Positions 31,981 to 47,362 of a stretch of 64,000 bases of DNA are shown one piece after another; within the stretch, counting starts at the first letter, position 1; each line of letters starts with the position of its first letter. Position numbers and translations under genes: made by a program. This DNA comes from Lacticaseibacillus absianus. Its GTDB lineage: Bacteria; Bacillota; Bacilli; Lactobacillales; Lactobacillaceae. Under the pieces are notes generated by a model. It ran no database searches, was not told where the DNA came from, and worked only from the letters and a program-made list of their open reading frames with translations. The stretch lies in assembly GCF_013407595.1 (NCBI RefSeq), contig NZ_JABEKX010000002.1:974220-1038219 (forward strand), given 5' to 3'.

Positions 31981-34765
31981 CTACCGCGTACTCGTCAGCT
32001 TGAGCGCGCCAGAGTGAACATAGCCGAGCCAAGTCCCGTCTAGGCGCCAAAGGGAATAATACGTGCTCCCATTGACGTGCCGATACTTCCCGTTGACCCG
32101 GAACTGTTGACCATACACCGCAGTTGTGCTAGTGCTCGAGTGCCAGCCAAAGTCCTTCCAGATCGATGTGCCCTTCAGGCTGATTGTCGCATATCCCCCC
32201 TGAGATTGCCAGACCCCTTGTGCATTAGCCGTCGTCTCGACATCCTCGACGTTCATGTAACCTTTCCATTGTCCTTGGCCATCATACAGGGACAAGACCC
32301 ACATGCCGTTGAACAAATGATACTGCCCATTGATCCGATAAGTGCGGCCCAGATGACTGGTGCTGGTGCTGGCGGCCTGACCCGAGAAGTCTCGGTAGAT
32401 CGGCTTGTTTGCCTTAGTCAACGTCGCGTAACCTGCTTGATACAACCAGATCCCTTGCGGACCAGCTGCAGCCTGCGTGGCCGCCTCGTCGATGTACCCG
32501 ACCCAGTTATCTGCTGCGTCGTACAGTGACAGGTAGGTCTTGCCGTTGAGGTGCTTGTACAGACGCTTTGACAGTAGCGTCTGGTGATAGAGTGTTTGAC
32601 TCGTTGATTTGACCTGCCAGTCAAAATCGGACCAGAGCGTTGGTTGGCGACTCGTGATCGTGATATAGCGCCCGTCATTAATCGGGTTGCCTTGAGGTGT
32701 CGCATTCAGCTGAACAGCGCCAGCATGAGCATAGCCGAGCCAGCTACCATCTGCTCGCCAAAGAGAATAATAGGTGCTCCCATTAGCGTGGTGATACTTG
32801 CCGTTGAGCTTAAAGGTTTGACCCAACACCGCATCCGTTCGCATGGCCGGTTGCCACTCAAAATTTCGCCACAATGATGTGCCCTTGAGTGTCACGGTCG
32901 CATAGCCGGTCTGACTCTGCCACACGCCTTGAGGGTTGGTCCCCGCTTCGAAGTCCGCAGGGTCCATATAGCCGATCCATTGCCCCTTCAGATCGTACAG
33001 CGAATCGTACGTGCGCCCATCAAAAGTGTGATACTCACCATTGATCTGATACGTGTTGCTCAAAAGAGGGGTGCTGGCGCCCGTCGCTTGCCCAGAAAAA
33101 TCACTATAAAGCGGGCGGCCTGTCCGCGTCAGCGTTGCGTAGCCAGACTTATTCAACCAGACGCCTTGAGGACCGCTAGCGATCTGCACATCACGTTCGC
33201 TAACGTAGCCTTGCCAAATATCCTCCGCGTCATACAATGACAGGTACGTCTGACCGTTTGCATGATGGTACTGTTGCTTAGCCAGGAACGTCCGTTGGTA
33301 GAGATCGGAACCAGATTTGAGTTCCCAGTCAAAGCTCGACCAGACTGGAGTGTTACTTTTGGCGATTGTCACATAGCGGCCATCGTCGACCGGTTGGCCT
33401 TGGCCTTGCGAATCGCCTTCCAGCGCAACGACGGCACTATGCCCATACCCGAGCCAAGTCCCATCCGCCGCCCAGAGCGAGTAATAAGTGCTACCGTTGA
33501 AGTGGTGATACATGCCGTTGATCTTGACCGTCTGGCCAAGGTGTTGATTGGAACTGGCCTTGACGTTCCAAGTGAAGTCCGCCCATAGGGACGTGTTCGC
33601 CATCGTGATCGTCGCGTAACTGGCGTGACTTAACCAAACCCCTTGTGCACCGGCTGCAATACTTACGGCCTTTTCGTTGATCAGTCCCATATCGTTGCCC
33701 TGCGCATCGACCAGGCGTAAGTATGTACTCCCGTTCGCGTGTTCATACTTCGCGATCGAATGATAGGTCCGGTTCAGCACCGCGTTCGTCGATTGCTTGG
33801 GTGTCCAGTCAAAATCCGCCCACAACGTGTTATTGATCTCCGTCAGGGTCACGTAACGATCATCTGTGATACGAGGTCCTTCCGGCGCAGTAACGCCCGT
33901 GAAGAGTCCGGCATAGTCGATCGAAGCGTCGATCAGGCGCCCACCTGATTGGCCGAATTGACTCGGGAGCTGAGCGGTGCTCGAGAACTGCCAGGCTCCA
34001 TAATCCGTATTCCAAAGTGATGAACTTGACGGCGTGTACGGGTACTGCGCCCACCAGGTTGCCTTCTTGCCCACGGTGGCGATCACATCGGCATTCTTCG
34101 TATAACCACCACCTGTATAGACGAGATGATTGGTGTACCCAGCCGCAGAAAGCACTTGCCAAAACGCATTCAGATTTGTTCGCACATCCCCTGTCACCGT
34201 GTCGTTCTCCTCAATGTCAGCCACGACCGGTGTCGATTTGGGCAAGCCCAGCTGTGCTAAGGCGGCAGCCGCATAAGTGGCCTCTGCCTTAGCCGAACTC
34301 AAACTGCCAAACTGTGCGTAGTGATACACAGAGACCTTCAACCCCGCCGCTTTCGCGTATTGGATCTGTTGCTTGGCGGCAGGGTTCGTGTAATTCGTCT
34401 TCTGCGTTGTTTTCACGACCGCTGCGCGAACCCCACTGGCATAGAGTTCATTGAAGTCTTTTTGAGTCATCCAATCCTGATACGACGCCACGTCTACGAC
34501 ATCGACCCGCGGTCGCGCTGGATCTCCGATCTTGATCGTATCGACCCAGCTCGACGCGGCCACCTGAATGATCTCCTGTGCACGACCCGTGGCCGCCTGA
34601 TCCGCTGCAGCCGTCACTTTAGCCACCGCCAACCAATCATTCGCTAAGGTCTCATCCAGACTCGTAGGCATGCGTAGGATGTGTTTCGTTGTTGTCGAGC
34701 CCGTCTCGTCGATCATGTCTGCCAGCGCGGCCCGTGAAAGCTCACTACCCATCACTTTGTTCGTT
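31981..34765 (-). pseudogene. GH25 lysozyme-like cell-wall hydrolase, 3' part of a gene split by IS66
   Basis: About 925 residues continue from the target duplication to the stop. A GH25 (Cellosyl/1,4-beta-N-acetylmuramidase) domain comes first, with 'RVDVVDVASYQDW' (catalytic Asp region) and 'VVADIEEND' (D-x-E pair), and ends near 'ASIDYAG'. Eight GW/SH3-like repeats of about 75 residues follow, each with 'Y.T', 'LW.DFDW' or 'LYSDFSG', and 'YHH.NG.TYYSL..AD'. Joined to the fragment at 37044-37245 with one duplication copy removed, the frame is continuous: 2979 bases, 992 residues. As it stands the hydrolase has lost its signal peptide; an ATG at 34752 could still give a non-exported product. 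Confidence 0.9.
34758..34765. repeat. IS66 target-site duplication, left copy
   Basis: TGTTCGTT, directly against the left inverted repeat and identical to 37044-37051. Eight bases is the length expected for the IS66 family. Confidence 0.95.
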
Positions 34766-34852
34766 GTAAGCACCCAATAACAGACCGGATATGATTGCCC
34801 CTTGCCGGGCAGTATGATTGCCTCATCAAATCTAAATTGGTGAGGTAATTTT

Positions 34853-35038
34853 ATGGATGAGAAACCTGAGATTGTTCGGATCAAATTAGAGGATGACCAG
34901 CGGCGGGCGCCACTGAGCACTGCCACCAAGGCCTTTCAAGTTAAGATTGACACCAACAAAACGGTTGTAGTGTATAACCATATCCAGGGCTATATCCTGG
35001 ATGCCTTGATGAAGGCGGTGTTCGCCAATGCTCATTGA
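34853..35038 (+). CDS. tnpA: IS66-family TnpA-like protein
   Basis: 61 residues, preceded by GAGGTAATTTT. It sits where TnpA lies in IS66 elements and is shorter than the usual 100-130 residues, without the full helix-turn-helix of long TnpA. The 'VYNHIQGYILDALMKAVF' end, split as VYNHIQGY and DALMKAVF, resembles TnpA C-termini in lactobacillar IS66 copies. The end overlaps tnpB by 11 bases. Confidence 0.7.
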   Translation: MDEKPEIVRIKLEDDQRRAPLSTATKAFQVKIDTNKTVVVYNHIQGYILDALMKAVFANAH

Positions 35039-35420
35039 TATCCACAAGCTCAGCGGCATTTATTTGATTTGTGGTAAGACCGACTTGCGTCGTGGTATTG
35101 AAGGCTTGGCTGGAGTTATCCAAGAGGAATATCATCTGGATCCGTACAGTCGGGCACTGTTTCTATTTTGCGGGACCCGCAAGGATCGGTTTAAGGCCCT
35201 ATATTGGGCTGGCGATGGATTTATCCTGCTCTACAAGCGAATTGAGGACGGCCGGCTACAGTGGCCAACGACTCAAAATGAGGTTAAGAAACTCCACGCT
35301 AAGCAATTAGAGCGTCTTTTATCTGGTTGGGGATTGGAGTCGACGGTAAACCAGTTTTGTCCAAGAAATAATGGTAGAAAGCCCGTCGCACCAGTGGTAC
35401 ACTCAACCCAACATCAATGA
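35028..35420 (+). CDS. tnpB: IS66 accessory protein TnpB
   Basis: 130 residues with the TnpB core: 'IYLICGKTDLRRGIEGLA', split as CGKTDLRRGI and GLAGVIQ, then 'ALFLFCGTRKDRFKALYW' with its F-x-G-x-x-x-D-R-x-K pattern, and 'FILLYKRIEDGRLQWP'. TnpB is needed for transposition with TnpC in characterised IS66 elements. It is not related to the RNA-guided IS605-type TnpB. Confidence 0.93.
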   Translation: MLIDIHKLSGIYLICGKTDLRRGIEGLAGVIQEEYHLDPYSRALFLFCGTRKDRFKALYWAGDGFILLYKRIEDGRLQWPTTQNEVKKLHAKQLERLLSGWGLESTVNQFCPRNNGRKPVAPVVHSTQHQ

Positions 35421-35436
35421 ATCGAGGGCTACGCCC

Positions 35437-36966
35437 ATGGTCACTACGACTGAAGATCTGCTCAAACAGGCACTCGAGCAAAATCGAGAACTCATGAAAC
35501 AAGTTCAGGCGCTCACCGAGCAGGTCGCGTATTTAACTCGGAAACTCTACGGCTCCCATTCGGAGAAGATGACCGATCCTAATCAGCTGTCTCTTCTGGG
35601 AGATAACAGTGTTTTTACCGACCCAGAGCAGACTGGGCAACAAAGCGAAGAAATAGTCGTAGTAAAAGCCAAGCGCAAGCCTAAAAGCAGTCGCGGTGAA
35701 TCAATCGATCCAAAATTGCCCATCGAAGAAACCGTGATCACTCGAAAAAGTGAGCTGTGTGATCATGGTCATCAGCTGGCTAAAGTGGGCAAGCATCTCG
35801 TGCGTGAAGTGGTCCAACACATACCAGGCAGATTGTATGTTGAGCGTATCTTTGAAGAGACATACAAGTGTCCGGAATGTGAGCTCGAGGATGGTGTGAG
35901 TCACCTGTATCAAGGACAAGCGCCGCAGGCGTTGTTCCCGCACAGTCTCGCGACCTCGTCGCTAGTCGCTGAGTTGCTCTATCAGAAATACATGCTGGGT
36001 ACACCGCTTTATCGTCAGATATTAGAATGGCGCCGAGCGGGTCTTCTACTCAGTGAGACGACCATGACAAACTGGGTAATCAACGCGGCAGAAATCGTCA
36101 GACCAGTCTATGACCTGATGCACGAGTACCTCCTGTCAGAGCGGTTCCTGCAAGGCGACGAAACACCGTTCCAAGTGCTGAGAGAACCGGGTAAGTCGGC
36201 AAAGAGTAAATCATACATCTGGGTAGAACGCAGTATTCGCCTCGCCGACCAGCAGGTCGTCTACTACGCTTATGGCAACACCCGCTCTGGTAAGTTCGCG
36301 CAGCGAATATACTCAGGCTATACTGGGGTCCTGCAGTGTGATGGCTATGCCGGATATAATCTTCTTGGCGACAGCGTCATCCGTGTTGGTTGTTGGGCGC
36401 ACGTTCGGCGTAAATTCTACGACGACGCAGCGAAGGTTAAAGGTAAATTTACCAGCACGAAACCGCTAGAGCTGCTCAACCAGATGTTCCACCTTGAGAC
36501 ACAATGGGCGCTCTTATCACCGGCCGAGCGTCTGAAATGTCGACAGGCAGAACTAGAACCTCTGATTGATCAGTTCTGGGCTTGGTGTGATCAGGCCGCG
36601 CCGGCGCCGAAATCGCGACTGGGTGTCGCTCTGACCTACGCTTTGAATCAGCGGTGCATGCTTAATCGAGTCTTGGAGTTTGGCGAGATTGATTTGAGCA
36701 ACAATGCATCAGAGCGGAACATGAAGTCCTTCGTGATTGGACGAAAGAACTGGCTGTTCGCCACCAGCCCAAAGGGGGCCGAAGCCAATGCGATCTGGAT
36801 GACGATCGTTGAGACTGCCAAAGCCAACGGACTGGATCCACGAAGTTACATTGAGCGACTTCTGCATGGGCTGTCACAACTGTCTGCCTCACCAACGAGG
36901 GAACAAGCTGAGGCTTATTTACCTTGGAATCAGCATCTAAAGCCAGCAACTAGCGAAACCGCGTAA
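35437..36966 (+). CDS. tnpC: IS66 transposase TnpC
   Basis: 509 residues from ATG 35437 after GAGGG. An N-terminal coiled-coil-like region with 'KLYGSHSEK' is followed by a zinc-finger-like 'YKCPEC' segment and then the DDE catalytic domain: 'LQGDETPFQ' (D1), 'LQCDGYAGYN' (D2), and 'NNASERNMKSFVIGRKNW' with the catalytic Glu. The C-terminal 'EAYLPWN' end is typical of the family. No stop or frameshift is seen, so the element is probably active. Confidence 0.96.
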   Translation: MVTTTEDLLKQALEQNRELMKQVQALTEQVAYLTRKLYGSHSEKMTDPNQLSLLGDNSVFTDPEQTGQQSEEIVVVKAKRKPKSSRGESIDPKLPIEETVITRKSELCDHGHQLAKVGKHLVREVVQHIPGRLYVERIFEETYKCPECELEDGVSHLYQGQAPQALFPHSLATSSLVAELLYQKYMLGTPLYRQILEWRRAGLLLSETTMTNWVINAAEIVRPVYDLMHEYLLSERFLQGDETPFQVLREPGKSAKSKSYIWVERSIRLADQQVVYYAYGNTRSGKFAQRIYSGYTGVLQCDGYAGYNLLGDSVIRVGCWAHVRRKFYDDAAKVKGKFTSTKPLELLNQMFHLETQWALLSPAERLKCRQAELEPLIDQFWAWCDQAAPAPKSRLGVALTYALNQRCMLNRVLEFGEIDLSNNASERNMKSFVIGRKNWLFATSPKGAEANAIWMTIVETAKANGLDPRSYIERLLHGLSQLSASPTREQAEAYLPWNQHLKPATSETA

Positions 36967-37306: not shown

Positions 37307-37626
37307 CCCGTTCTGTAAGCCTTTCTAAAAAGGACGCATAGTCAAAGACCTGCACTCATCACCCGTTCACCACTTTATTTCGCGCCGCTGATCTTGCTAT
37401 CCGCTTACCTAGCCTTGGACAGTCAACACCTAAGCCGACGCTCAGGTCACTGAAAGGTCTGAGCAGGTCGCGCCGCTGAGCTGTGACTCCCAAAAGATCG
37501 GTTGAATTTGACCGCAAGCATATGAAGTTTCGGTCTCGCACTCGCCCAAGCCGCCTTCATCACAAGCCAAAAAAGCCCCCTAAAAGGGAGCCTTGGCTCA
37601 CTAACTTAACATAGGCTAAGGCATGA
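37307..37626. other. Intergenic stretch between split GH25 gene and sstT
   Basis: It contains the sstT terminator (37569-37594). A minus-strand frame at 37359-37541 has no ribosome site or family resemblance and is not called. Nothing else is seen. Confidence 0.5.
37569..37594 (-). terminator. Terminator after sstT
   Basis: GGCTCCCTTTTAGGGGGC hairpin followed by TTTTTT on the minus strand. It is the first clear terminator after the unit starting at 44186. Confidence 0.75.
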
Positions 37627-38877
37627 CTATTCCCGCATTTGCGCTCGTCTCACCGCCGCCTTAACATCTACAGGACGGCCACTACGACGGAGATCATGGT
37701 ACTCTGCAGCCGCAGTGAACAGAAGATCCGAGGCAGAGTTAACGGCTGTTTCGACCGAGTCTTGGATCACGCCGATGATGAATCCGATCCCCACGACTTG
37801 CATCGCGATATCGTTGGAGATCCCGAAGAGACTCGCCGCCATTGGAATGATCAAAAGCGAGCCACCTGCGATCCCGGAAACTCCGGTTGACGCCAGTGCA
37901 CTCAAGAAGCAGAGTAACAACGCAAGGGGGAATGAGACCTGAATCCCAAGCGTGTTGCACGCGGCAAGCGCCATGATCGAGATCGTGATCGCAGCGCCAC
38001 CCGAGTTTGCCGACCCGCCAAGCGGGATCGAGATCGCGTAAGATTTCTCGTTCAATCCTAGGTCAGCAGCGGCTTTTAAGTTGATCGGAATGTTGACGGC
38101 CCCGCTTCGCGTGAAAAATGCTGGAATACCAGAAACCTTCAACGTCCACAACGTCAGTGGGTACGGGTTTTGTCCCGTCATCCCCCAGACCATCAACGGA
38201 TAAGCCACCAAATAGACAAAGGCCATTGTCCCGACTAACAGTCCAACCAACTGCCCATATTTGACCACGCCACCAAAACCAGTCTGGCTGATCGTCGTGA
38301 ACAAGAGCCCGACGATCCCGACCGGTGCAAATTCGATCACTAACTGTGCCACACGTTGGATCGCGTCGGTGATATCTTGAAACACCTCACGCGTCGCAGG
38401 TCGCGCTAATTGTAGCGCGAACCCGATCATCAACGCCCAGAATAGGATAGCCAGGTAGTTGCCATCAATGACGGCCTGAACAGGGTTCGCAACCGCATTC
38501 ACTAACAGATCCTTGATTACGGTTCCTAGATCCTTTGGCGCACTTTGCGCCACGTGGACCGCCTGAGGAAAGACCAGCTTGACCCGAAAGATGAAACTTG
38601 CCACGACCGCGATCACCGCAGACAGAAAGGTCGCACTGAGGTACAACACGATGACCGATCCAAAGTGCGTCTCTGCTCCGGCCTCGTATTTAGAAATTGC
38701 TGTCATGATCAAGAAGAAGACGAGTATCGGTGCGATCCCTTTCAAAGCGCCGATAAACAAATCCCCAAAAACGCCGATCCACGTCCACTCAGGCACAATG
38801 ACCCCGAGCAGCGCCCCAACGATCAATCCGATCACAATCCGAACAATCAAGCTGGTCTGTCGATATTTAGCAAACAT
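37627..38877 (-). CDS. sstT: Serine/threonine:sodium symporter SstT
   Basis: 416 residues from the ATG at 38877 after GAGGAGGAAGG. A DAACS-family carrier with eight or more membrane segments. The diagnostic parts are 'AFFTRSGAVNIPIN' (hairpin with the serine-rich region), 'AISIPLGGSANSGGAAITI' and 'GVIQDSVETAVNSASD'. SstT imports L-serine and L-threonine with Na+. It starts 45 bases after the flippase stop with no terminator between, so it is probably in the same transcript as the polysaccharide genes upstream, which is unusual. Confidence 0.93.
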   Translation of the reverse strand: MFAKYRQTSLIVRIVIGLIVGALLGVIVPEWTWIGVFGDLFIGALKGIAPILVFFLIMTAISKYEAGAETHFGSVIVLYLSATFLSAVIAVVASFIFRVKLVFPQAVHVAQSAPKDLGTVIKDLLVNAVANPVQAVIDGNYLAILFWALMIGFALQLARPATREVFQDITDAIQRVAQLVIEFAPVGIVGLLFTTISQTGFGGVVKYGQLVGLLVGTMAFVYLVAYPLMVWGMTGQNPYPLTLWTLKVSGIPAFFTRSGAVNIPINLKAAADLGLNEKSYAISIPLGGSANSGGAAITISIMALAACNTLGIQVSFPLALLLCFLSALASTGVSGIAGGSLLIIPMAASLFGISNDIAMQVVGIGFIIGVIQDSVETAVNSASDLLFTAAAEYHDLRRSGRPVDVKAAVRRAQMRE

Positions 38878-38922
38878 TCGCCTTCCTCCTCTTCTCATGG
38901 TCGATCGCACGCTGACCAATCC

Positions 38923-40332
38923 TTACCGCTTCAAACGCCGCCGCACCACTTTCAGCCCTGCATTCGCCAGCCGATCCACGATCGCGCGGTTGGCGACCAG
39001 AAGCCCGATCAGGAACAAGCACTGTAACCCGTATGCTAGCCAGACCTGACTGATAAACATCGTCGCGTACTGGCCCAACAATAAACCCATCTGGATCAAA
39101 ACGCTCCAGATCGTCACATTGGAGTTGACGGTCTGGATAATGTCTCGATGTCGCACGATCCAGATCAAGAGAAAACTCAAAAAAGACGCAAGTGACACAG
39201 CATTGATCCCGACAAACTTAACGAGCAGAAAACTCAAAACAATGCTGGTCGTTGATCCCGCGATCGTTGTCTTGAAAATTTCGACTGTCCGCTTAGCTGC
39301 AACATACTGAGACCCCAAAAAACCGGAGAGGCTAGAAAAAATTACAGATAGCAAAAGTAAGGGGATGAACTGCCAAGCGCTGTAATAAGTCGACGCCACT
39401 AAGATCCGCATCAGCGGCTTAACCAGGACCATGATCGTAGACGCACCGACGAACAGCAATGCAATGTACACTCGGTAGATCGTATCGAAGAAGTTGTCCT
39501 TCCGGTCCCCTTCAGACTCAAATTCTTCGATTGCGGCCAACTGCCAAGACTGTGCAAAAATATTCGTTACCGTACTTAAAAGTGATGGAATCTTACTTGC
39601 GACAGCGAACATCCCGTTGGCTCCAGAGCCCAAGAAAATCAGGATCGCGTAGCGGCCAGCCGTATTCGAGATATTCCAAGCGACTGAATTCGGGATCAAT
39701 GGTGTGCTGAACGCTAGGATTCGGTGTGTATAGTCACGACTGATCCGGTCAGGCTGATAAAACTTCGACAGATGTAGCCGAAAGTGCAACATCAAGTTCG
39801 AGATCAACAGCGCCAAGCAAGTCGAAAGGAAGTAGCCCGCAAACCCCATATTGAGGGGCCAGAGAAAGATAATGTTCAATCCTGCCGTCAGGGCCGTTAA
39901 GAATACCCCGTTGAAGGCAAATAGCGAGATCTTATCAATCCCCTTTGCAAACTGCGTGTAAAGCGATTGATACGCCTGGAGGACTAACAAGATGGGCAAG
40001 ACCGTGAACGGCCGGTAGAAGAGATAAAACAGCGGCATGGTTAGTAACGCGATGACCGCCCCGATCCGGGTGATTCGAACACTGTTCGAAAAGATTTCAG
40101 CCGGGTCAACCGTTCGGTCCATCGTAAAGCGTAAAACCGCATCGAAAACGCTAAGCGAAACGACGGGTAACAAGAGCCCCGCCGTTGTTGAAATCACATC
40201 CACCAACCCGTAATCGCTCGGAACCATCCGCGCGGTATATAACGGTAACATGAAAAAGGTGATGAACTTACTGCCTAGGTTCCCGATCGCAAACAGCAGT
40301 GAGTTACTGAATAATCGTTTGTATTTCTGCAC
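38923..40332 (-). CDS. wzx: Polysaccharide repeat-unit flippase (Wzx-like)
   Basis: 469 residues with about 12-14 predicted membrane helices. The N-terminus 'NSLLFAIGNLGSKFITFFMLPLYT' (split as LLFAIGNLGSK and FFMLPLYTARM) and 'SDYGLVDVI' are typical of MATE-like oligosaccharide flippases. It would move the lipid-linked repeat unit across the membrane for polymerisation by Wzy. The GTG start lies 9 bases after the DUF1015 gene. Sugar specificity cannot be read from sequence. Confidence 0.9.
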   Translation of the reverse strand: MQKYKRLFSNSLLFAIGNLGSKFITFFMLPLYTARMVPSDYGLVDVISTTAGLLLPVVSLSVFDAVLRFTMDRTVDPAEIFSNSVRITRIGAVIALLTMPLFYLFYRPFTVLPILLVLQAYQSLYTQFAKGIDKISLFAFNGVFLTALTAGLNIIFLWPLNMGFAGYFLSTCLALLISNLMLHFRLHLSKFYQPDRISRDYTHRILAFSTPLIPNSVAWNISNTAGRYAILIFLGSGANGMFAVASKIPSLLSTVTNIFAQSWQLAAIEEFESEGDRKDNFFDTIYRVYIALLFVGASTIMVLVKPLMRILVASTYYSAWQFIPLLLLSVIFSSLSGFLGSQYVAAKRTVEIFKTTIAGSTTSIVLSFLLVKFVGINAVSLASFLSFLLIWIVRHRDIIQTVNSNVTIWSVLIQMGLLLGQYATMFISQVWLAYGLQCLFLIGLLVANRAIVDRLANAGLKVVRRRLKR

Positions 40333-40341
40333 AGGGACGCC

Positions 40342-41409
40342 TCATTCCTGATATTTGCTCATCACCAGAAGCGACGGCGCTTTAGGACTCATCCACGTCG
40401 ATTTCGGCGGTAAAATATTGCCTTGATTGGCCGACTCAGTGAATTCTGCTTTAGTCATCGGCGCGACCTTGAAGAAGACCGAGTGTGTCGAGCGACGCAT
40501 CGCCTTGGCACATGCGACTTCACTCAAGTAACGAAGCTTACGGTCATCGAATGTCCGAAAAGCCTGCTGGATGATCTGCGTGTTGAGTCGATAGATGTCG
40601 TTGTTCCAGAAGCCATCCGAAAGTAGCGTGATCAGGTGCACGCGCCAAGCCTGCCCTCCACGGTACATCATCACCGTATCCTTTTGTGGCGCCATCGCCG
40701 CCTCGTCTGCCTGATCGACTGACTCGACCTTAAACTTGGTCTGGAGGAACCTTAACGCCGCATCAAATTGTGCATCGGTCAGGTGTGGTAGCTGACGGTG
40801 AATCGGCAAGATATCAACGCTGTCGATGCTGATCACATAGGAGAGGACATATTGCTTGAACCCCGAGAGCGAGGTCGAATACAGTCGGTGGTGGCCATCT
40901 CCAACGTAAAGCGCATCGGTGTCGCCAAATGCAGCCAACAACTCATCCGCAGCCGTGCCGGTGTAGTAATAGAGCTGATCAGACGCCACTGTATAGATCA
41001 GTTCTGCAGGATGCTCGGCAACGAAAGCATCAAGGTCTACCGCCTGTTTGGCAATCAACATCACTGGCGCAGCCTCAGCGTTATAGCCATGGTAGTTGCT
41101 CAGCATCCCTTGGATCGTCTCTGGTAACACCAGCTCATGATTCTTAACTGCCCCACGCTGGTACTCTGTGATCGGCAGATCACAGATCAGCCCTTTGCGT
41201 CCCTGGTTATCGATCACGTACACGCCTTGTGTGTGCTTCACGATCGCTTCAGCGTTGAGCTTGTCCTTCATCGCCTGATCTAAGAAAATCGTACGATCAT
41301 CAAAGCTGATCTGATCATTTTTGATCTGGACGAGGTTAATGAATTCCGAATCGTACAGCGTACCCGACACGTTCACATAACTATTCGCAAGTTTTTCCAG
41401 TTTCACCAT
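40342..41409 (-). CDS. DUF1015 family protein
   Basis: 355 residues. The DUF1015 marks are 'DGHHR' at 171-175, 'VKNHE' at 88-92, and the C-terminal 'NILPPKSTWMSPKAP'. The function of this family is not established. DGHHR resembles, as I recall it, the motif of free-serine kinases of the ParB/sulfiredoxin fold (SerK, SbnI), and DUF1015 genes often sit beside serA/serC in clostridia; both points are from memory. It lies 4 bases after the ornithine-cyclodeaminase-family gene in a tight operon. A role in making O-phosphoserine for a polysaccharide substituent is my inference. Confidence 0.85.
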   Translation of the reverse strand: MVKLEKLANSYVNVSGTLYDSEFINLVQIKNDQISFDDRTIFLDQAMKDKLNAEAIVKHTQGVYVIDNQGRKGLICDLPITEYQRGAVKNHELVLPETIQGMLSNYHGYNAEAAPVMLIAKQAVDLDAFVAEHPAELIYTVASDQLYYYTGTAADELLAAFGDTDALYVGDGHHRLYSTSLSGFKQYVLSYVISIDSVDILPIHRQLPHLTDAQFDAALRFLQTKFKVESVDQADEAAMAPQKDTVMMYRGGQAWRVHLITLLSDGFWNNDIYRLNTQIIQQAFRTFDDRKLRYLSEVACAKAMRRSTHSVFFKVAPMTKAEFTESANQGNILPPKSTWMSPKAPSLLVMSKYQE

Positions 41410-41413
41410 GAGA

Positions 41414-42376
41414 TCACCAATACCAAACTTTCTCTGTCGGCGGCGTCAGCTCGATTGATGCGGTCGCCTCTGCCTGGACTTTGTCATACAGCTTAGCAGC
41501 AAAGAAAATGTCGTGTAACGCTAACCCAATATTGTAAACCGTGATTCGTTCCTCATCAGTCTGCCGCCCGAGCGAAGGCTCTTGTAAGACCTCCGCCACT
41601 TCAGCCAGGTGCTTGAAGTCCTTGAAGTATTTGAACCCCTGAACCTGTGCCACATCATCGCAGTAGACCCGGTCTACAACACAATCGAGATTCATGAACC
41701 CCCGCGTATGGATCGGCACTAGCAATGTCCCTGGTCGCATCATTGTCGGGTCTGGCAGTAAGTCGGCTTCAGCATATGTCAGCGCGGACAAGATCACTTC
41801 GCTAGCTGCAAATAACGCGGCGACCGTCGGCACATCGGTGATTGTCAAGCGCTCATGTCCAGGTAGCGTCATTAAGTACGCGCGAAAATCACGTTCCTGG
41901 CCCTGAAACGCGTACAGGTTGATCGTCAAGTCGCGATTAGGGAATAACGCGAGCAGTGCCTTGACCGCCGAGCGAGCTTGATTGCCAAGCCCAATTACAC
42001 CAACACTCGTAAAATCGTGCTTCGCGAGAAGTCGTACGCTATGCGCGGCAACGGCACCGGTCCGGGCGGTGGTGATAAAGTTACCATCCATGATTGCTTT
42101 TAATCCGCCAGTTTTCAGGTCATACAACATAATCTGGCTATCCAACGCTGGCTGCCGCGTCGCATAGCGATTTACGACCTTGACCCCGGCAACTTGAAGC
42201 GCCGGAATAATCGTCGGCATTACGTTGAAAAATGTGGTTGCGTCGGGCTTCAAACTCAATTTTGCGGGTAGGATCACCTGCTGTTTCATTCGTAGCGCAT
42301 CGTCGACCCAATCGACCATCTCTGTCTCACGAAGTGACACTCGAGAAAGGTGTGCAAAATCAATTATTTTGGTCAT
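41414..42376 (-). CDS. Ornithine cyclodeaminase/mu-crystallin family protein
   Basis: 320 residues from ATG 42376, with AAGGAG 7 bases upstream; it overlaps the fusion gene by 17 bases. The NAD(P)-binding motif 'GVIGLGNQARSAVKAL' is near residue 125, preceded by 'ITTARTGAVAAHSVRLLA' with the family's T-x-R-T-x-A pattern, and K in 'GVKVVN' fits the substrate lysine. Members include ornithine cyclodeaminase, alanine dehydrogenase, ketimine reductase and SbnB (an amino-acid adduct dehydrogenase of siderophore synthesis). Which reaction applies here is open. Its place suggests synthesis of an unusual amino-acid precursor. Confidence 0.87.
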   Translation of the reverse strand: MTKIIDFAHLSRVSLRETEMVDWVDDALRMKQQVILPAKLSLKPDATTFFNVMPTIIPALQVAGVKVVNRYATRQPALDSQIMLYDLKTGGLKAIMDGNFITTARTGAVAAHSVRLLAKHDFTSVGVIGLGNQARSAVKALLALFPNRDLTINLYAFQGQERDFRAYLMTLPGHERLTITDVPTVAALFAASEVILSALTYAEADLLPDPTMMRPGTLLVPIHTRGFMNLDCVVDRVYCDDVAQVQGFKYFKDFKHLAEVAEVLQEPSLGRQTDEERITVYNIGLALHDIFFAAKLYDKVQAEATASIELTPPTEKVWYW

Positions 42377-44186
42377 CCGCAAACTCCTTCATTGCAAGTA
42401 ACAACTCGTCGTTCTCCTCGCGCGTCTTAACTGCGATCCGGACATACTGGCCATTGATGCCATGTTTTTCCGTCAGATCCTTGATCAAGATCGCATGGGT
42501 CTGAAGCAGATAGGCCCCCAGCCCCGCAGCCGTCACACCCTCTGTCAGCCGCAACATAAAATAGTTGGCCTGGGAAGGCAGAACGGTGACGTAGTCCAAT
42601 CGTTCAAGCCCCGCTGCTAACGCCTCGCGAACGGCATAAAAGCGCTTCAGCCCCTTCTGATAATCACCCTTATATTTTTCGATGATCTGCAAGAAAAACT
42701 CGCCAAAGGAATTGATGTTCCAAATTGACACTTCACGTTTGATCGTCGCAATCAGCGCCACATCACCACTGGCCAAGATGCCCAACCGGACGCCCGGTAC
42801 ACCAAACGACTTGGAAATACTCTTGATCACAGTCAGGTGTGGATACCGATCAAGCAGATCGCGATCAAGCATTGAGGTGACCGCTTCCGCATCCGCAAAG
42901 TCTGAGAAGGACTCGTCAACAATCAACTTGATCCCCGCAGCCTGCGTCCAATCGCAAAGTGTCAGCAATTCGGCATGCGTTAAGTAATTCCCAGTTGGAT
43001 TATCGGGATTGATCACGATCAGCTGGCTCAAGCCCTTATCGGCAAAGAAACGTTGAATGTCCGCTGCGGTATACGTGTACCCTTGTTGATCTGTATTCAT
43101 ATACACTAGGCGGTCTGCAGGCAGGCGGTTCGGATATTCCTCGAACGTTGGTCGGATCACACCGACGCGGCCGCTCCCCTGCGCAAGCACGACCTTGATC
43201 AACTCAGCTGCACCGTTCCCCACAACGATTTGATCAGGCCGTAGCGCGTAATACTTCGCTGCAAGGCCTGAGTTCACACTCAGGCCGGACGGATAATCAA
43301 TAATCAGCCGGTCTAGATTCTCGTGGAACTCATCCACCATCGCACGCGGTGGAAAGAATGGGTTGACCAGATAGGCGTAATCATGAACAGACGGGAAGCG
43401 CCAGTAGCCCCCGAAGCGCGCCCCCATCTCCTTCATTTTTTGAATCGGATCCGCACAAAATTTGATTCCGGCGATTGTCAGATCCTGAATGTCATCGGTT
43501 TCGTACCAATCATCCGGTGACAATACCTCCGCTTGCATTCCCTCTGGGTCAATCGCAACAAGCGTGCCCATGACCGTTTCGTAGTACGAATCACCGCCAA
43601 AGCCTACAATCTGAGCGTTCAGATACGGTAGGAACTTGGTCCGCGAGTATGCGGCGCTCAGTCGATAGATGTTGACCGTCTTGAGAAGATCTGTCGTGTG
43701 TTGACGATTGATCTGTGCTTTGGGCACAAAAGCAGTGATGTTCCCCGCTTCGTCTGTGCGAACACAGGTCCCATCCATCCAGGTCTCAAATGGACTTACG
43801 ACCGCAAAATTCGTGTTTGTGGAAGCAATCAATCGCTCAACAACGCCGTCTGCTAGGATCAAATCAGATTCGAACATCAAGGCATCTTCGGCGATTAAGG
43901 CATCACTCGCTTTTTGGACCGAAATAATGTTATTTGCCCGGTCAAAGGTATCATTGATGATGACCTCAACTGGCGTCTTAAAGGTAAAAGTAGCCAGATG
44001 GGCTTTCAAGACGTCCGCCTTGTAGCCAGCCACAATCACGACTCGTGACAACCCGAGGCCATCAAGCTGGCGGAGCAATCGGTGAATCAACGTTTCCCCA
44101 TTAACTTGGACCATGCACTTCGGTTGTGTTGCGGTCAACTCCTTGAAGCGCGTTCCCTTACCTGCTGCTAAGATAATTGCTTGCAT
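42360..44186 (-). CDS. Fusion: nucleotidyltransferase (LicC-like) plus PLP-dependent aminotransferase/decarboxylase
   Basis: 608 residues. Residues 1-240 are a sugar-nucleotide/phosphocholine cytidylyltransferase-type domain with 'ILAAGKGTRF' (6-14), 'PKCMVQVNGETLI' (22-34) and 'FESDLIL' (105-111). Residues about 250-605 are a fold-type I PLP enzyme of the HisC/CobD group: 'NPDNPTG' (393-399), D424 in 'LIVDESF', the PLP lysine K459 in 'SISKSFG', R467 and late R583. A likely reading is that the C-terminal half makes an amino-alcohol phosphate and the N-terminal half activates it with CTP for LicD. Whether it transaminates (for example to serinol phosphate) or decarboxylates (phosphoserine or phosphothreonine) cannot be told by eye. 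First gene of its transcript. Confidence 0.9.
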   Translation of the reverse strand: MQAIILAAGKGTRFKELTATQPKCMVQVNGETLIHRLLRQLDGLGLSRVVIVAGYKADVLKAHLATFTFKTPVEVIINDTFDRANNIISVQKASDALIAEDALMFESDLILADGVVERLIASTNTNFAVVSPFETWMDGTCVRTDEAGNITAFVPKAQINRQHTTDLLKTVNIYRLSAAYSRTKFLPYLNAQIVGFGGDSYYETVMGTLVAIDPEGMQAEVLSPDDWYETDDIQDLTIAGIKFCADPIQKMKEMGARFGGYWRFPSVHDYAYLVNPFFPPRAMVDEFHENLDRLIIDYPSGLSVNSGLAAKYYALRPDQIVVGNGAAELIKVVLAQGSGRVGVIRPTFEEYPNRLPADRLVYMNTDQQGYTYTAADIQRFFADKGLSQLIVINPDNPTGNYLTHAELLTLCDWTQAAGIKLIVDESFSDFADAEAVTSMLDRDLLDRYPHLTVIKSISKSFGVPGVRLGILASGDVALIATIKREVSIWNINSFGEFFLQIIEKYKGDYQKGLKRFYAVREALAAGLERLDYVTVLPSQANYFMLRLTEGVTAAGLGAYLLQTHAILIKDLTEKHGINGQYVRIAVKTREENDELLLAMKEFADDQNN

Positions 44187-44230
44187 TGTTCTCTCCTTAA
44201 CCTGCCTCGAAAAATCAGACCCATGCTACG

Positions 44231-44236
44231 ATTATA
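44231..44236 (-). promoter_or_regulatory. -10 of a second promoter inside the polysaccharide locus
   Basis: A perfect TATAAT on the minus strand 45 bases before the fusion gene and downstream of a terminator. The -35 region is weak. Confidence 0.5.
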
Positions 44237-44310: not shown

Positions 44311-44333
44311 AAAAGGGAGCCTTCAACGCTCCC
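44311..44333 (-). terminator. Terminator after the GT4 gene
   Basis: GGGAGC/GCTCCC stem with a 7-base loop followed by TTTT on the minus strand. It splits the polysaccharide locus into two transcripts. Confidence 0.7.
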
Positions 44334-46570: not shown

Positions 46571-47362
46571 CTACCGCCAATACGCTTCAAAAGTATGACG
46601 CTCAATCTTCTCTGGTGGTGGCGGTGTCATATAGTTTGCGCCATATAACACAGTGAGATATTTCTCGGCTTCCTGCGGGATCGGCATCTGCTTTCCCTCG
46701 AACTCGGCCATACGCCCACTTCCTAACCATGCCGCCTGATATTGCTTAGTTGGATTCCAAGTCACCATCATTTGAGTTCTCAAACTTGAGTTCGTGTCAC
46801 GATATTGACTCGCGTACCGATCGAGTTGACGCCGCAACCAATTTCCTGGAATTAAATTGCCCAACCCATAAACGGTCCGTTTGAACAGGCCACGAATGCC
46901 TTGTCCAGGATTGCGTAGTTTTTGCTCACATACTCGTAAGACCCGTGTCAGTCGGTTCATCCCACGAAAGTAACGCGATTTCTGCTCTGTCTCTTCTGGT
47001 AATACGTCGACTGGTAAAATGTCGATGTAAACGCCAATTTTCTGGGGGTGTCTCAACCTGGTTTCAACTAACGAGGTTCGCGCATCATAAACCTTTATAA
47101 AAGCCGTCGGATAAGTTGCATCTGTCAGTTTATAACGCGCATCCCCCGTAAACAACTGACGAAAGCGATCATAGTCACTTCGCTCCATGATCAAATCTGC
47201 ATCATCGTCCCAAGGAATAAACCCTCTGTGTCGAATCGCCCCGAGCAAAGTGCCACTATCCAAGAAAACCGTTAACCCACGTGCTCGGCAGAACTCAACG
47301 ACATACTCAATCATATCCAACTCAACTTTTTGTACTTCGCTAAGCGATAACTGCTTTGTCAC
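46571..47362 (-). CDS. licD: LicD family phosphotransferase
   Basis: 263 residues. The LicD core is at 33-67: 'FLDSGTLLGAIRHRGFIPWD' followed by 'DDADLIMERSDYDRF', with the D-x-G-T-L-L-G and D-D-D-x-D metal-binding pattern. LicD proteins transfer phosphocholine or similar alcohol phosphates from CDP-activated donors to sugars. No choline uptake, kinase or LicC is nearby, but a LicC-like domain is in the fusion protein at 42360-44186, which could supply the donor. The start is GTG after AAGAAGGA. Confidence 0.92.
   Translation of the reverse strand: MTKQLSLSEVQKVELDMIEYVVEFCRARGLTVFLDSGTLLGAIRHRGFIPWDDDADLIMERSDYDRFRQLFTGDARYKLTDATYPTAFIKVYDARTSLVETRLRHPQKIGVYIDILPVDVLPEETEQKSRYFRGMNRLTRVLRVCEQKLRNPGQGIRGLFKRTVYGLGNLIPGNWLRRQLDRYASQYRDTNSSLRTQMMVTWNPTKQYQAAWLGSGRMAEFEGKQMPIPQEAEKYLTVLYGANYMTPPPPEKIERHTFEAYWR

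Follow-up and report, generated by a model that had tools for sequence, protein, structure and literature searches.

LicC-type cytidylyltransferases are found in pneumococcal LicC (PDB 1jyk) and in the PntC-AEPT protein of Treponema denticola (6pd1), where the domain is fused to a PLP enzyme, and the neighborhoods of PntC/LicC-type genes are reported to include LicD-like phosphotransferases or glycosyltransferases (PMC6697681). Ethanolamine phosphate for the capsule of Campylobacter jejuni is reported to be made by Cj1436, which decarboxylates serine phosphate (PMC11800397), and is described as being amide-linked to glucuronate in an ATP-dependent manner. The locus analyzed here resembles 6pd1 in that a LicC-type cytidylyltransferase is fused to a PLP enzyme, but the PLP enzyme is CobD-like whereas that of 6pd1 is a class V aminotransferase, and the predicted substrate is ethanolamine phosphate rather than a phosphonate or phosphocholine. 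It is like the Cj1436 system, by description, in that phosphoserine is predicted to give ethanolamine phosphate for a surface polysaccharide, but activation here is predicted to use CTP and to be carried out by the same protein. Our search of the literature found no description of this fusion or of the gene module in which it lies.

The window, the whole 64,000-nt stretch of DNA that was analyzed (Lacticaseibacillus absianus, NZ_JABEKX010000002.1, positions 974,220-1,038,219), carries five closely packed open reading frames on its minus strand between 37.6 and 44.2 kb (Table 1). Their Pfam domains are NTP_transf_3 plus Aminotran_1_2 (in one protein), OCD_Mu_crystall, DUF1015, Polysacc_synt and SDF. 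The OCD-family frame overlaps the fusion gene whichever start is used (42382 or 42376), and the remaining frames are spaced by 4, 9 and 3 bases, the last being 45 if SstT starts at 38877. A LicD gene (141 bits versus a Pfam cut-off of 22.6) is in the block that precedes this set. The sequence-only reading of this DNA had described the same five genes in this order with overlaps or small gaps, a DGHHR motif in the DUF1015 protein and LicD in the upstream block, and all of these were found; the terminator it placed at 37569 corresponds to a hairpin, 37594-37572, listed by our scan for terminator-like sites. At the other end of the block, the hairpin it took for a terminator at 44311-44333 is real (GGGAGC/GCTCCC stems, -14.8 kcal/mol, z -3.5) but is absent from the scan list, as the scan demands a longer T-run, and the TATAAT it noted at 44231 is present, but the promoter scan lists no two-box promoter at 44236-44231. 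The nearest listed minus-strand promoter site, 44409-44381, lies ahead of the 44333-44311 hairpin. It is plausible that the five genes form a single transcript.

Table 1. Features of the gene block and its surroundings (positions are those of the window)
Feature	Position	Strand	Details and basis
Fusion protein, LicC/PntC-like cytidylyltransferase (aa 1-245) and CobD/6oux-like PLP enzyme (~aa 265-605)	42360..44186	-	608 aa; Pfam, NCBIfam, PDB profile search, tree
OCD/mu-crystallin-family putative imine reductase	41414..42376	-	Pfam; ORF 42382-41414, likely ATG 42376
Divergent DUF1015 protein, putative free L-serine kinase	40342..41409	-	355 aa; Pfam, SerK profile matches, alignment
Wzx-type flippase of polysaccharide locus	38923..40332	-	Pfam Polysacc_synt
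SstT serine/threonine transporter	37627..38877	-	NCBIfam; ORF from 38919, likely ATG 38877
LicD-family phosphotransferase, putative user of CDP-activated unit	46571..47362	-	Pfam
Intrinsic-terminator-like hairpin closing gene block	37572..37594	-	Terminator scan and fold
Hairpin with short T-run, between upstream block and fusion	44311..44333	-	Sequence and fold
TATAAT upstream of fusion	44231..44236	-	Sequence

We propose, with a probability of about 0.6, that the role of this gene block is to produce an activated amino-alcohol phosphate that is destined for a cell-surface polysaccharide. The scheme draws on the genes observed in the block, their kinship, their site residues and the way the parts recur, and would run as follows: the DUF1015 protein would phosphorylate free L-serine, the PLP domain would, by its kinship, decarboxylate the resulting O-phospho-L-serine to ethanolamine phosphate, and the cytidylyltransferase domain of the same protein would, judging from kinship and site residues, combine this with CTP to give CDP-ethanolamine. 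This core, from serine to CDP-ethanolamine, we regard as likely. The OCD-family enzyme may in addition reduce the Schiff base that the amine forms with a 2-oxo acid, of which pyruvate is the probable one, and so yield an N-(1-carboxyalkyl)ethanolamine unit; this N-carboxyalkylation, which could come before or after activation, is a tentative part of the scheme with slightly less than an even chance of being correct. LicD would then transfer the phospho-alcohol to a repeat unit, which the flippase would export. Much of this pathway was put forward in the sequence-only reading, and its core is supported (the PLP domain, the DUF1015 kinship and the co-occurrence of the genes, below), but SstT as a part of the module and the option of serinol phosphate are not supported.

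Do the parts of this block recur together elsewhere? The survey of fusion genes lists 80 relatives of at least 561 confirmed; L090 was excluded as it is on the same contig as L067, L159 repeats L077 and was not counted, and L105 was left out of the 81-locus neighborhood count as its fusion frame was not recovered. In one scoring step of the analysis, no more than three candidates were taken from each genome. Among the matches listed, a DUF1015 gene adjoins the fusion in 11 of 81 other loci versus a mean of 1.7 under random placement, a test that takes no account of kinship (the 82 fusions form 53 clusters at 80% identity), and because of this excess the arrangement is more than chance. LicD is within five genes of the fusion in 23 of the 81 loci, and LicD, a TagF-type enzyme or a CDP-alcohol phosphatidyltransferase in only 39 of 81 (22/39 with five genes on both sides), again among the matches listed. 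In the same set of matches LicD adjoins the fusion nine times (random maximum 10), the TagF type three times (random mean 2.3) and the phosphatidyltransferase five times (random maximum 5), so that none of the three exceeds every random placement; the nearby transferase varies among related loci and is not always LicD. The outcome that the sequence-only reading had named as telling against it, a fusion and DUF1015 that never keep company with LicD or flippases, did not occur, since they do co-occur with both elsewhere. SstT itself scores 538 bits versus an NCBIfam cut-off of 308, but no relative of it is among the matches listed for 82 other loci, many of which are short contigs; it shares the gene block without being conserved as a component of the module. 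In a congener (G951) a three-gene cassette lies beside an accessory Sec locus; the 523-aa gene that follows DUF1015 there matches nothing in Pfam, even at E 10, and a TagF-like reading of it, which rested on inspection by eye, was dropped. The best scores of a small CDP-alcohol transferase at another locus (L097) are with phosphatidylserine-type synthases, below cut-off.

The OCD-family protein of the window scores 90.7 bits against PF02423 (cut-off 24), and the best matches of a profile built from 15 module OCD proteins are pyrroline-2-carboxylate reductase, 4m54 ("putative ornithine cyclodeaminase") and alanine dehydrogenase. Ornithine cyclodeaminase proper was rejected as an assignment (1u7h, 38.6 bits, versus 134.5 for the pyrroline-2-carboxylate reductase 6t3e). 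The OCD step, unexplained in the earlier reading, is now assigned to a slot that opine dehydrogenases hold in related loci: among the matches listed, an opine dehydrogenase adjoins the fusion in 15 of 81 loci and an OCD protein in 11 of 81 (random means 2.4 and 2.0, maxima 8 and 7), and in two pairs of sister fusions, L108/L143 and L124/L146 (SH-aLRT 99 each), an opine dehydrogenase and an OCD protein, respectively, are at +1. Because opine dehydrogenases take the OCD slot, the OCD enzyme may make the N-(1-carboxyalkyl)ethanolamine unit. It could be argued that the OCD enzyme is off the decoration route, an amino-acid or imine dehydrogenase that is in surface-sugar loci by chance, as the OCD family has many roles and 52 of 81 loci have neither an OCD protein nor an opine dehydrogenase among the matches listed; the same count makes this step an option and not part of the core. 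We consider that reading unlikely, though it is the strongest of the alternatives: among the matches listed, 11 of the 13 loci with an OCD gene have it immediately next to the fusion, the two genes overlap in the window, and between sister lineages an opine dehydrogenase is exchanged for it at one and the same position. Some related gene sets of gut bacteria seem to include one or other of these two interchangeable enzymes, which would alter the product chemistry. The SbnB model TIGR03944 gives the window OCD protein only 64 bits (cut-off 326.9). In staphyloferrin B synthesis the SbnI-SbnB pair consists of a serine kinase and an OCD-family enzyme that acts on an amine/2-oxo-acid conjugate; unlike that system, the block has no SbnA-like partner within its five genes, and the step proposed is a reductive N-alkylation, not an oxidation. 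N-[(R)-1-carboxyethyl]ethanolamine phosphate, a listed component of O-polysaccharides of Proteus mirabilis (PMC9630907), is by its chemistry what the module is proposed to make in its opine-dehydrogenase version; with the OCD enzyme the product could be the opposite stereoisomer or carry a different acid moiety.

The PLP domain of the window fusion scores higher with the NCBIfam CobD model (TIGR01140, 171 bits) than with the hisC model (TIGR01141, 142 bits), and all 82 aligned fusions match both models among the matches listed. These scores are well under the curated cut-offs (290.55 and 276.55, respectively), and for this reason the fusion was not filed as CobD. Nineteen sampled fusions join 6oux (96/93) in a tree, apart from E. 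coli HisC and CobD, with a warning from the program about long branches converging at 6oux and CobD; five stand-alone relatives were intended for this tree, of which L151, L153 and L154 were lost by the ORF filter. The title of 6oux is "threonine phosphate decarboxylase-like enzyme", and it is closer to the fusion than is CobD 1lc5 (155 versus 99 bits). A W-N-x-N motif, present in 82/82 fusions, aligns with Y-P-x-S of E. coli HisC, and position 569 is Lys in 81/82 fusions and Arg in CobD, 6oux and HisC (both counts among the matches listed). By model scores and tree, then, the PLP domain resembles CobD and not HisC, in keeping with the CobD-type decarboxylation in the sequence-only reading. 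These comparisons bear on the idea that the domain acts as an aminotransferase on dihydroxyacetone phosphate, yielding serinol phosphate for the decoration, with the DUF1015 and OCD proteins acting elsewhere. Cj1437 is reported to do so for the Campylobacter capsule (PMC11800397), and the fusion is under the CobD cut-off. It is nonetheless improbable: CobD outscores hisC for the window protein, the fusions sampled fall with 6oux in the tree and do not carry the HisC Y-P-x-S motif (Cj1437 being outside the comparison), a neighboring serine kinase would serve no purpose, and nothing in the analysis favors serinol phosphate.

Phosphorylation of serine by the DUF1015 protein would supply the proposed decarboxylation. 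The window protein scores 82.3 bits with Pfam PF06245 (cut-off 25.8) and is divergent, since canonical relatives score roughly 240-374. E92, D171, G172, H174, R205, P334 and K336 are invariant in 24 aligned DUF1015 members. Compared with solved structures, a profile of 24 family members has as its only significant matches 1vk1, a chain similar to SerK (5e-5), and three SerK entries (0.0024-0.0026; 5x0b, 0.0024), the next match being at 1.7, and a profile of the 12 module-type members finds only 1vk1 and the three SerK entries at E<10 (E 0.037-0.21), which falls short of significance. The kinship shows only with profiles; the window protein alone gave three chance matches in the PDB and no SerK. 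DGHHR and PK[ST]T are in the same order as in the two structure chains aligned, a feature common to Thermococcus SerK and the SerA-adjacent DUF1015 proteins. The canonical DUF1015 gene adjoins a SerA-like gene in 58/58 loci examined (the identity of four was confirmed), whereas the module subfamily lies in glycan loci and not beside SerA-like genes. These profile matches and neighbors are in line with the link to SerK drawn earlier, and suggest a distant relationship between SerK and the DUF1015 family. The fold is no safe guide to kinase activity, as one SerK-like protein is reported to bind CTP rather than ATP (PMC12704722). Weak DUF1015 matches in three genomes (G231, G275 and G212) were set aside, the surrounding stretches being without any module gene, and a search of viral contigs with the DUF1015 alignment confirmed nothing.

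Models for SerC (TIGR01364), PEP mutase (PF13714) and phosphatidylserine decarboxylase (TIGR00163) give no match in the window genome, and its five matches to the SerA model are all under cut-off. Of 13 genomes in which DUF1015 adjoins the fusion, 5 have full-length SerC, versus 18 of 27 in which it does not (19 counting one truncated gene), the 27 having been chosen from 70 loci without DUF1015 next to the fusion; at a one-sided p of 0.089 or 0.057 this difference is only suggestive. The substrate might instead be O-phospho-threonine or some other phospho-amino acid, with CDP-aminopropanol or a similar compound as the product, as CobD proper acts on threonine phosphate (its family name) and SstT is named a serine/threonine transporter. 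That would be slightly less probable still than serinol phosphate, given that archaeal SerK is reported to take free serine and not threonine (PMC5120207), that canonical DUF1015 genes adjoin SerA-like genes and that the closest solved relative is 6oux and not 1lc5.

The best PDB profile matches of the cytidylyltransferase domain are LicC 1jyk (3e-22) and PntC 6pd1 (3.8e-21), the next being at 2e-12. The reported GxG(T/S)R...K signature of LicC/PntC-type cytidylyltransferases, with its catalytic Arg and Lys (PMC6697681), is present as R13 and K23 in 82/82 fusions, as is D108, among the matches listed. PntC E104 and E196 are reported to lie near the amine and are paired with LicC D105 and D192 (PMC6697681); fusion E106 aligns with PntC E104 and E203 with LicC D192, and both are Glu in 82/82 fusions (among the matches listed), aligning with the amine contacts of the aminoethylphosphonate enzyme. 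That this pair is invariant suggests that the cytidylyl site takes a small amine, and N-alkylation before activation is therefore less likely. Activation of 2-aminoethylphosphonate, with the PLP domain as its transaminase, has in its favor that 6pd1 is among the two best matches and that a fusion of both activities exists (PMC6697681), but it is very improbable, as the title of 6pd1 is class V aminotransferase, in contrast to the C domain here, which is CobD-like and matches Aminotran_1_2, and PEP mutase has no match in the window genome and seven more of 13 genomes (4/13 are over cut-off, in a family wider than PEP mutase).

Returning to the route from serine, a wider version of it is more speculative than the N-carboxyalkylation step, and we put it forward with considerable reserve: the module may be a widespread mobile cassette that turns serine and a 2-oxo acid into a CDP-activated N-(1-carboxyalkyl)ethanolamine, with two unrelated imine reductases for one step. 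Opine dehydrogenase would then produce the (R) form, which is known from Proteus, and the OCD enzyme might produce the (S) form. Any CDP-alcohol transferase at hand would use the unit, LicD on capsules and others elsewhere, and the G951 partner beside the accessory Sec locus might decorate an exported adhesin.

If the proposed route is true, it would explain how ethanolamine phosphate is supplied to the surface in a bacterium that has no SerC or phosphatidylserine decarboxylase model matches, and would give a working guess for the function of DUF1015. It would also provide a candidate gene for N-carboxyethyl-ethanolamine phosphate, and amino-alcohol-phosphate decorations of gut bacteria could be recognized by a gene marker.

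Pfam and NCBIfam searches confirmed on the minus strand the five genes that the sequence-only reading had placed in one block: the fusion (608 amino acids, with a LicC/PntC-like cytidylyltransferase N domain and a CobD-like PLP-enzyme C domain), an ornithine-cyclodeaminase-family (OCD) protein, a DUF1015 protein (355 amino acids), a flippase and SstT. The fusion ORF overlaps the OCD-family ORF, and the other ORFs are separated by 3-9 bases. A terminator-like hairpin lies at the end of the block in this 2.84 Mb, 11-contig genome, and the fusion is preceded by a second hairpin and a TATAAT, at which the promoter scan listed no two-box promoter. The preceding block encodes (Pfam) a Wzz-like protein (23.2 bits, marginally short of the 25.5-bit cut-off), a membrane protein that has no match in Pfam and is taken for a putative polymerase, LicD, a Stealth protein and a glycosyltransferase. 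The core of the earlier proposal, a module in which serine gives rise to a CDP-activated amino-alcohol phosphate, stands, with a CobD-like C domain in the fusion and kinship of DUF1015 to the serine kinase SerK by profile only; the inclusion of SstT in the module was not borne out. No description of such a module was found in a literature search mostly outside subscription journals.

The nearest solved structures to the N domain of the fusion are LicC and PntC. In the PntC paper, two Glu residues are described near the primary amine of aminoethylphosphonate, whereas the phosphocholine enzyme LicC has Asp at both equivalent places, a difference judged to be mainly steric (PMC6697681). Fusion E106 aligns with PntC E104 at the first of these positions, within an LLLESDLI stretch of the profile, and E203 aligns with LicC D192 at the second (a pairing reached by taking chain and published numbers to differ by 20 residues, at a place where the alignment to PntC is out of step by one). 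Because both residues are Glu in 82/82 fusions, the alignments point to a small primary amine as the substrate of this domain. The CobD and hisC models are both matched by all 82 fusions; for the C domain from the window the better of the two is CobD (171 bits, against 142 bits for hisC), both well below the NCBIfam cut-offs. Its best solved relative is 6oux, named "threonine phosphate decarboxylase-like" (155 bits versus 99 bits for CobD), presumably the enzyme that decarboxylates phosphoserine in a norcobamide producer. In a tree of 19 fusions and references the fusions join 6oux with support of 96/93, but the program flagged this as a place where long branches come together. In one locus (L106) a class V aminotransferase gene directly follows the fusion.

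Is the DUF1015 protein related to serine kinase? As a single query against the PDB, the protein from the window did not find SerK. A profile of 24 family members gave 1vk1 (5e-5), three SerK entries (0.0024-0.0026) and then 2l6n (1.7), with individual stretches weak and significance only in the whole-chain scores; a profile of 12 module-type proteins recovered only the same four chains at E <10, none of them individually significant. With both profiles, DGHHR and the C-terminal PK[ST]T align in order in both chains for which alignments were printed. Canonical DUF1015 genes (L002-L031 and L039-L066) adjoin a SerA-like dehydrogenase gene in 58/58 loci examined, drawn from the best 60 matches listed, the remaining two being the window itself and L038. 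The four SerA-like proteins tested have PGDH as their best NCBIfam model, below its cut-off, and match Pfam 2-Hacid_dh, and in two genomes (G242 and G158) SerC also lies about 1.2 kb from DUF1015. The canonical family may perform a step of serine/phosphoserine metabolism. Neither of two DUF1015 proteins scanned matched an NCBIfam family. In L115 the gene immediately after the fusion encodes a fuller DUF1015 protein (186 bits). In one study a SerK-like protein is reported to have bound CTP rather than ATP (PMC12704722), which counts against a simple kinase reading of DUF1015.

The SerC model TIGR01364, which may miss other phosphoserine aminotransferases, matched nothing in the window genome or in that of its congener G951. 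Full-length SerC was found in 5/13 genomes with DUF1015 beside the fusion versus 18/27 without (19/27 counting a truncated one), the 27 having been chosen from 70 loci without that adjacency. These values fit a serine kinase substituting for a missing phosphoserine route, with a difference that is not significant (one-sided p 0.089, or 0.057 counting the truncated SerC). No PEP mutase match was found in the window genome, making a phosphonate less likely. Model TIGR00163 for phosphatidylserine decarboxylase also had no match there, and matched only 3/14 control genomes.

Genome contigs were scanned with four fusions as queries, giving at least 561 confirmed relatives, of which 80 were kept: judging by titles and lineages, many from gut or rumen Bacillota, some from Actinomycetota, Bacteroidota and Verrucomicrobiota, and one from a Fusobacterium. 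Few evenly sampled genomes carry a full fusion: 3/398 from the phylum (with at most three candidates scored per genome) and 2/30 from the genus, the window genome being counted in both. Among the 81 loci with a recovered fusion, opine dehydrogenase genes adjoin it in 15, OCD genes in 11 and DUF1015 genes in 11 (random-placement means 2.4, 2.0 and 1.7), more than in every one of 2000 random placements, which ignore kinship (the 82 fusions form 53 clusters at 80% identity). Adjacency of LicD (9; mean 3.8), CDP-alcohol phosphatidyltransferase (5; 1.1) and TagF-type genes (3; 2.3) does not beat all 2000. LicD lies within five genes of the fusion in 23/81 loci, and one of these three transferase types does so in 39/81. 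Four parts of the window's set, LicD, OCD, the fusion and DUF1015, recur together on a Fusobacterium mortiferum contig (L092). A cluster of proteins present in six loci is often encoded beside TagF-type genes near the fusion; the one member tested (L131) has a YidC-like domain joined to a sulfatase/LTA-synthase-like domain. Three loci (L126, L069 and L080) have, near the fusion, genes for an MFS transporter, a CDP-alcohol phosphatidyltransferase and a protein of AMP-ligase/acyltransferase type, a hint that lipid synthesis may be another use of the activated unit; an NCBIfam scan on this question gave no assignment above cut-offs.

The OCD step, left unexplained in the sequence-only reading, can now be given a proposed and testable role. 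Opine dehydrogenase appears as an alternative to OCD: the two proteins tested match Pfam Octopine_DH at 91 and 95 bits (cut-off 30), and the best solved match is octopine dehydrogenase (126 bits). The two families co-occur in 1/81 loci (L099), and in two pairs of sister fusions (SH-aLRT 99 for each) the same +1 place holds opine dehydrogenase in one and OCD in the other (L108 versus L143, and L124 versus L146). Neither is present in 52/81 loci. When 15 module OCD proteins are combined in a profile, its nearest solved structures are pyrroline-2-carboxylate reductase, 4m54 and alanine dehydrogenase, with ornithine cyclodeaminase (1u7h) far off. Both families share one kind of reaction, in which an amine and a 2-oxo acid form an imine that is then reduced. 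We infer that the OCD enzyme may N-carboxyalkylate ethanolamine phosphate; with pyruvate, imine reduction would give N-(1-carboxyethyl)ethanolamine phosphate, the (R) form of which is listed for P. mirabilis O-polysaccharides (PMC9630907).

Large GH25 muramidases (five proteins, four of them with a Pfam assignment) are encoded in 4/23 loci with LicD within five genes of the fusion versus 0/58 without, in two lineages only. By analogy with choline-binding proteins, the extra repeats they carry could attach to the polymer once it is decorated; the L123 protein has a choline-binding repeat match just below the cut-off.

Positions of features in the window and in surveyed loci (L-numbers)
Feature	Locus	Position	Strand	Remark
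Terminator-like hairpin, end of block	window	37594-37572	-	
Second hairpin, before fusion	window	44333-44311	-	
TATAAT, before fusion	window	44236-44231	-	
Two ORFs just downstream of block	window	35028-36966	+	presumably resembling IS66-type transposition genes
Large GH25 muramidase	window	31981-34929		
Large GH25 muramidase	L032	1998-4517		
Large GH25 muramidase	L033	2158-4584		
Large GH25 muramidase	L123	16680-19826		
Large GH25 muramidase	L125	17144-20200		BLAST alone
Class V aminotransferase	L106	11843-12916		
YidC-like/sulfatase-like protein	L131	16036-18807		

A second setting is found in G951, of the same genus, in which the fusion, OCD and DUF1015 proteins are 51, 54 and 58% identical to those of the window and are encoded in the same order. 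No LicD match was found within the 19.9-kb stretch of G951, where the trio comes after an accessory Sec locus (Asp1, Asp2 and Asp3 above cut-offs, SecY2 and GtfA below theirs). The 523-aa product of the next gene after DUF1015 in G951 matches no Pfam family, even at E 10. The protein exported by such an accessory Sec system is usually a serine-rich-repeat adhesin. Since the same three genes stand in the same order beside this locus, the fusion, OCD and DUF1015 genes seem to be transferred together from one glycan locus to another.
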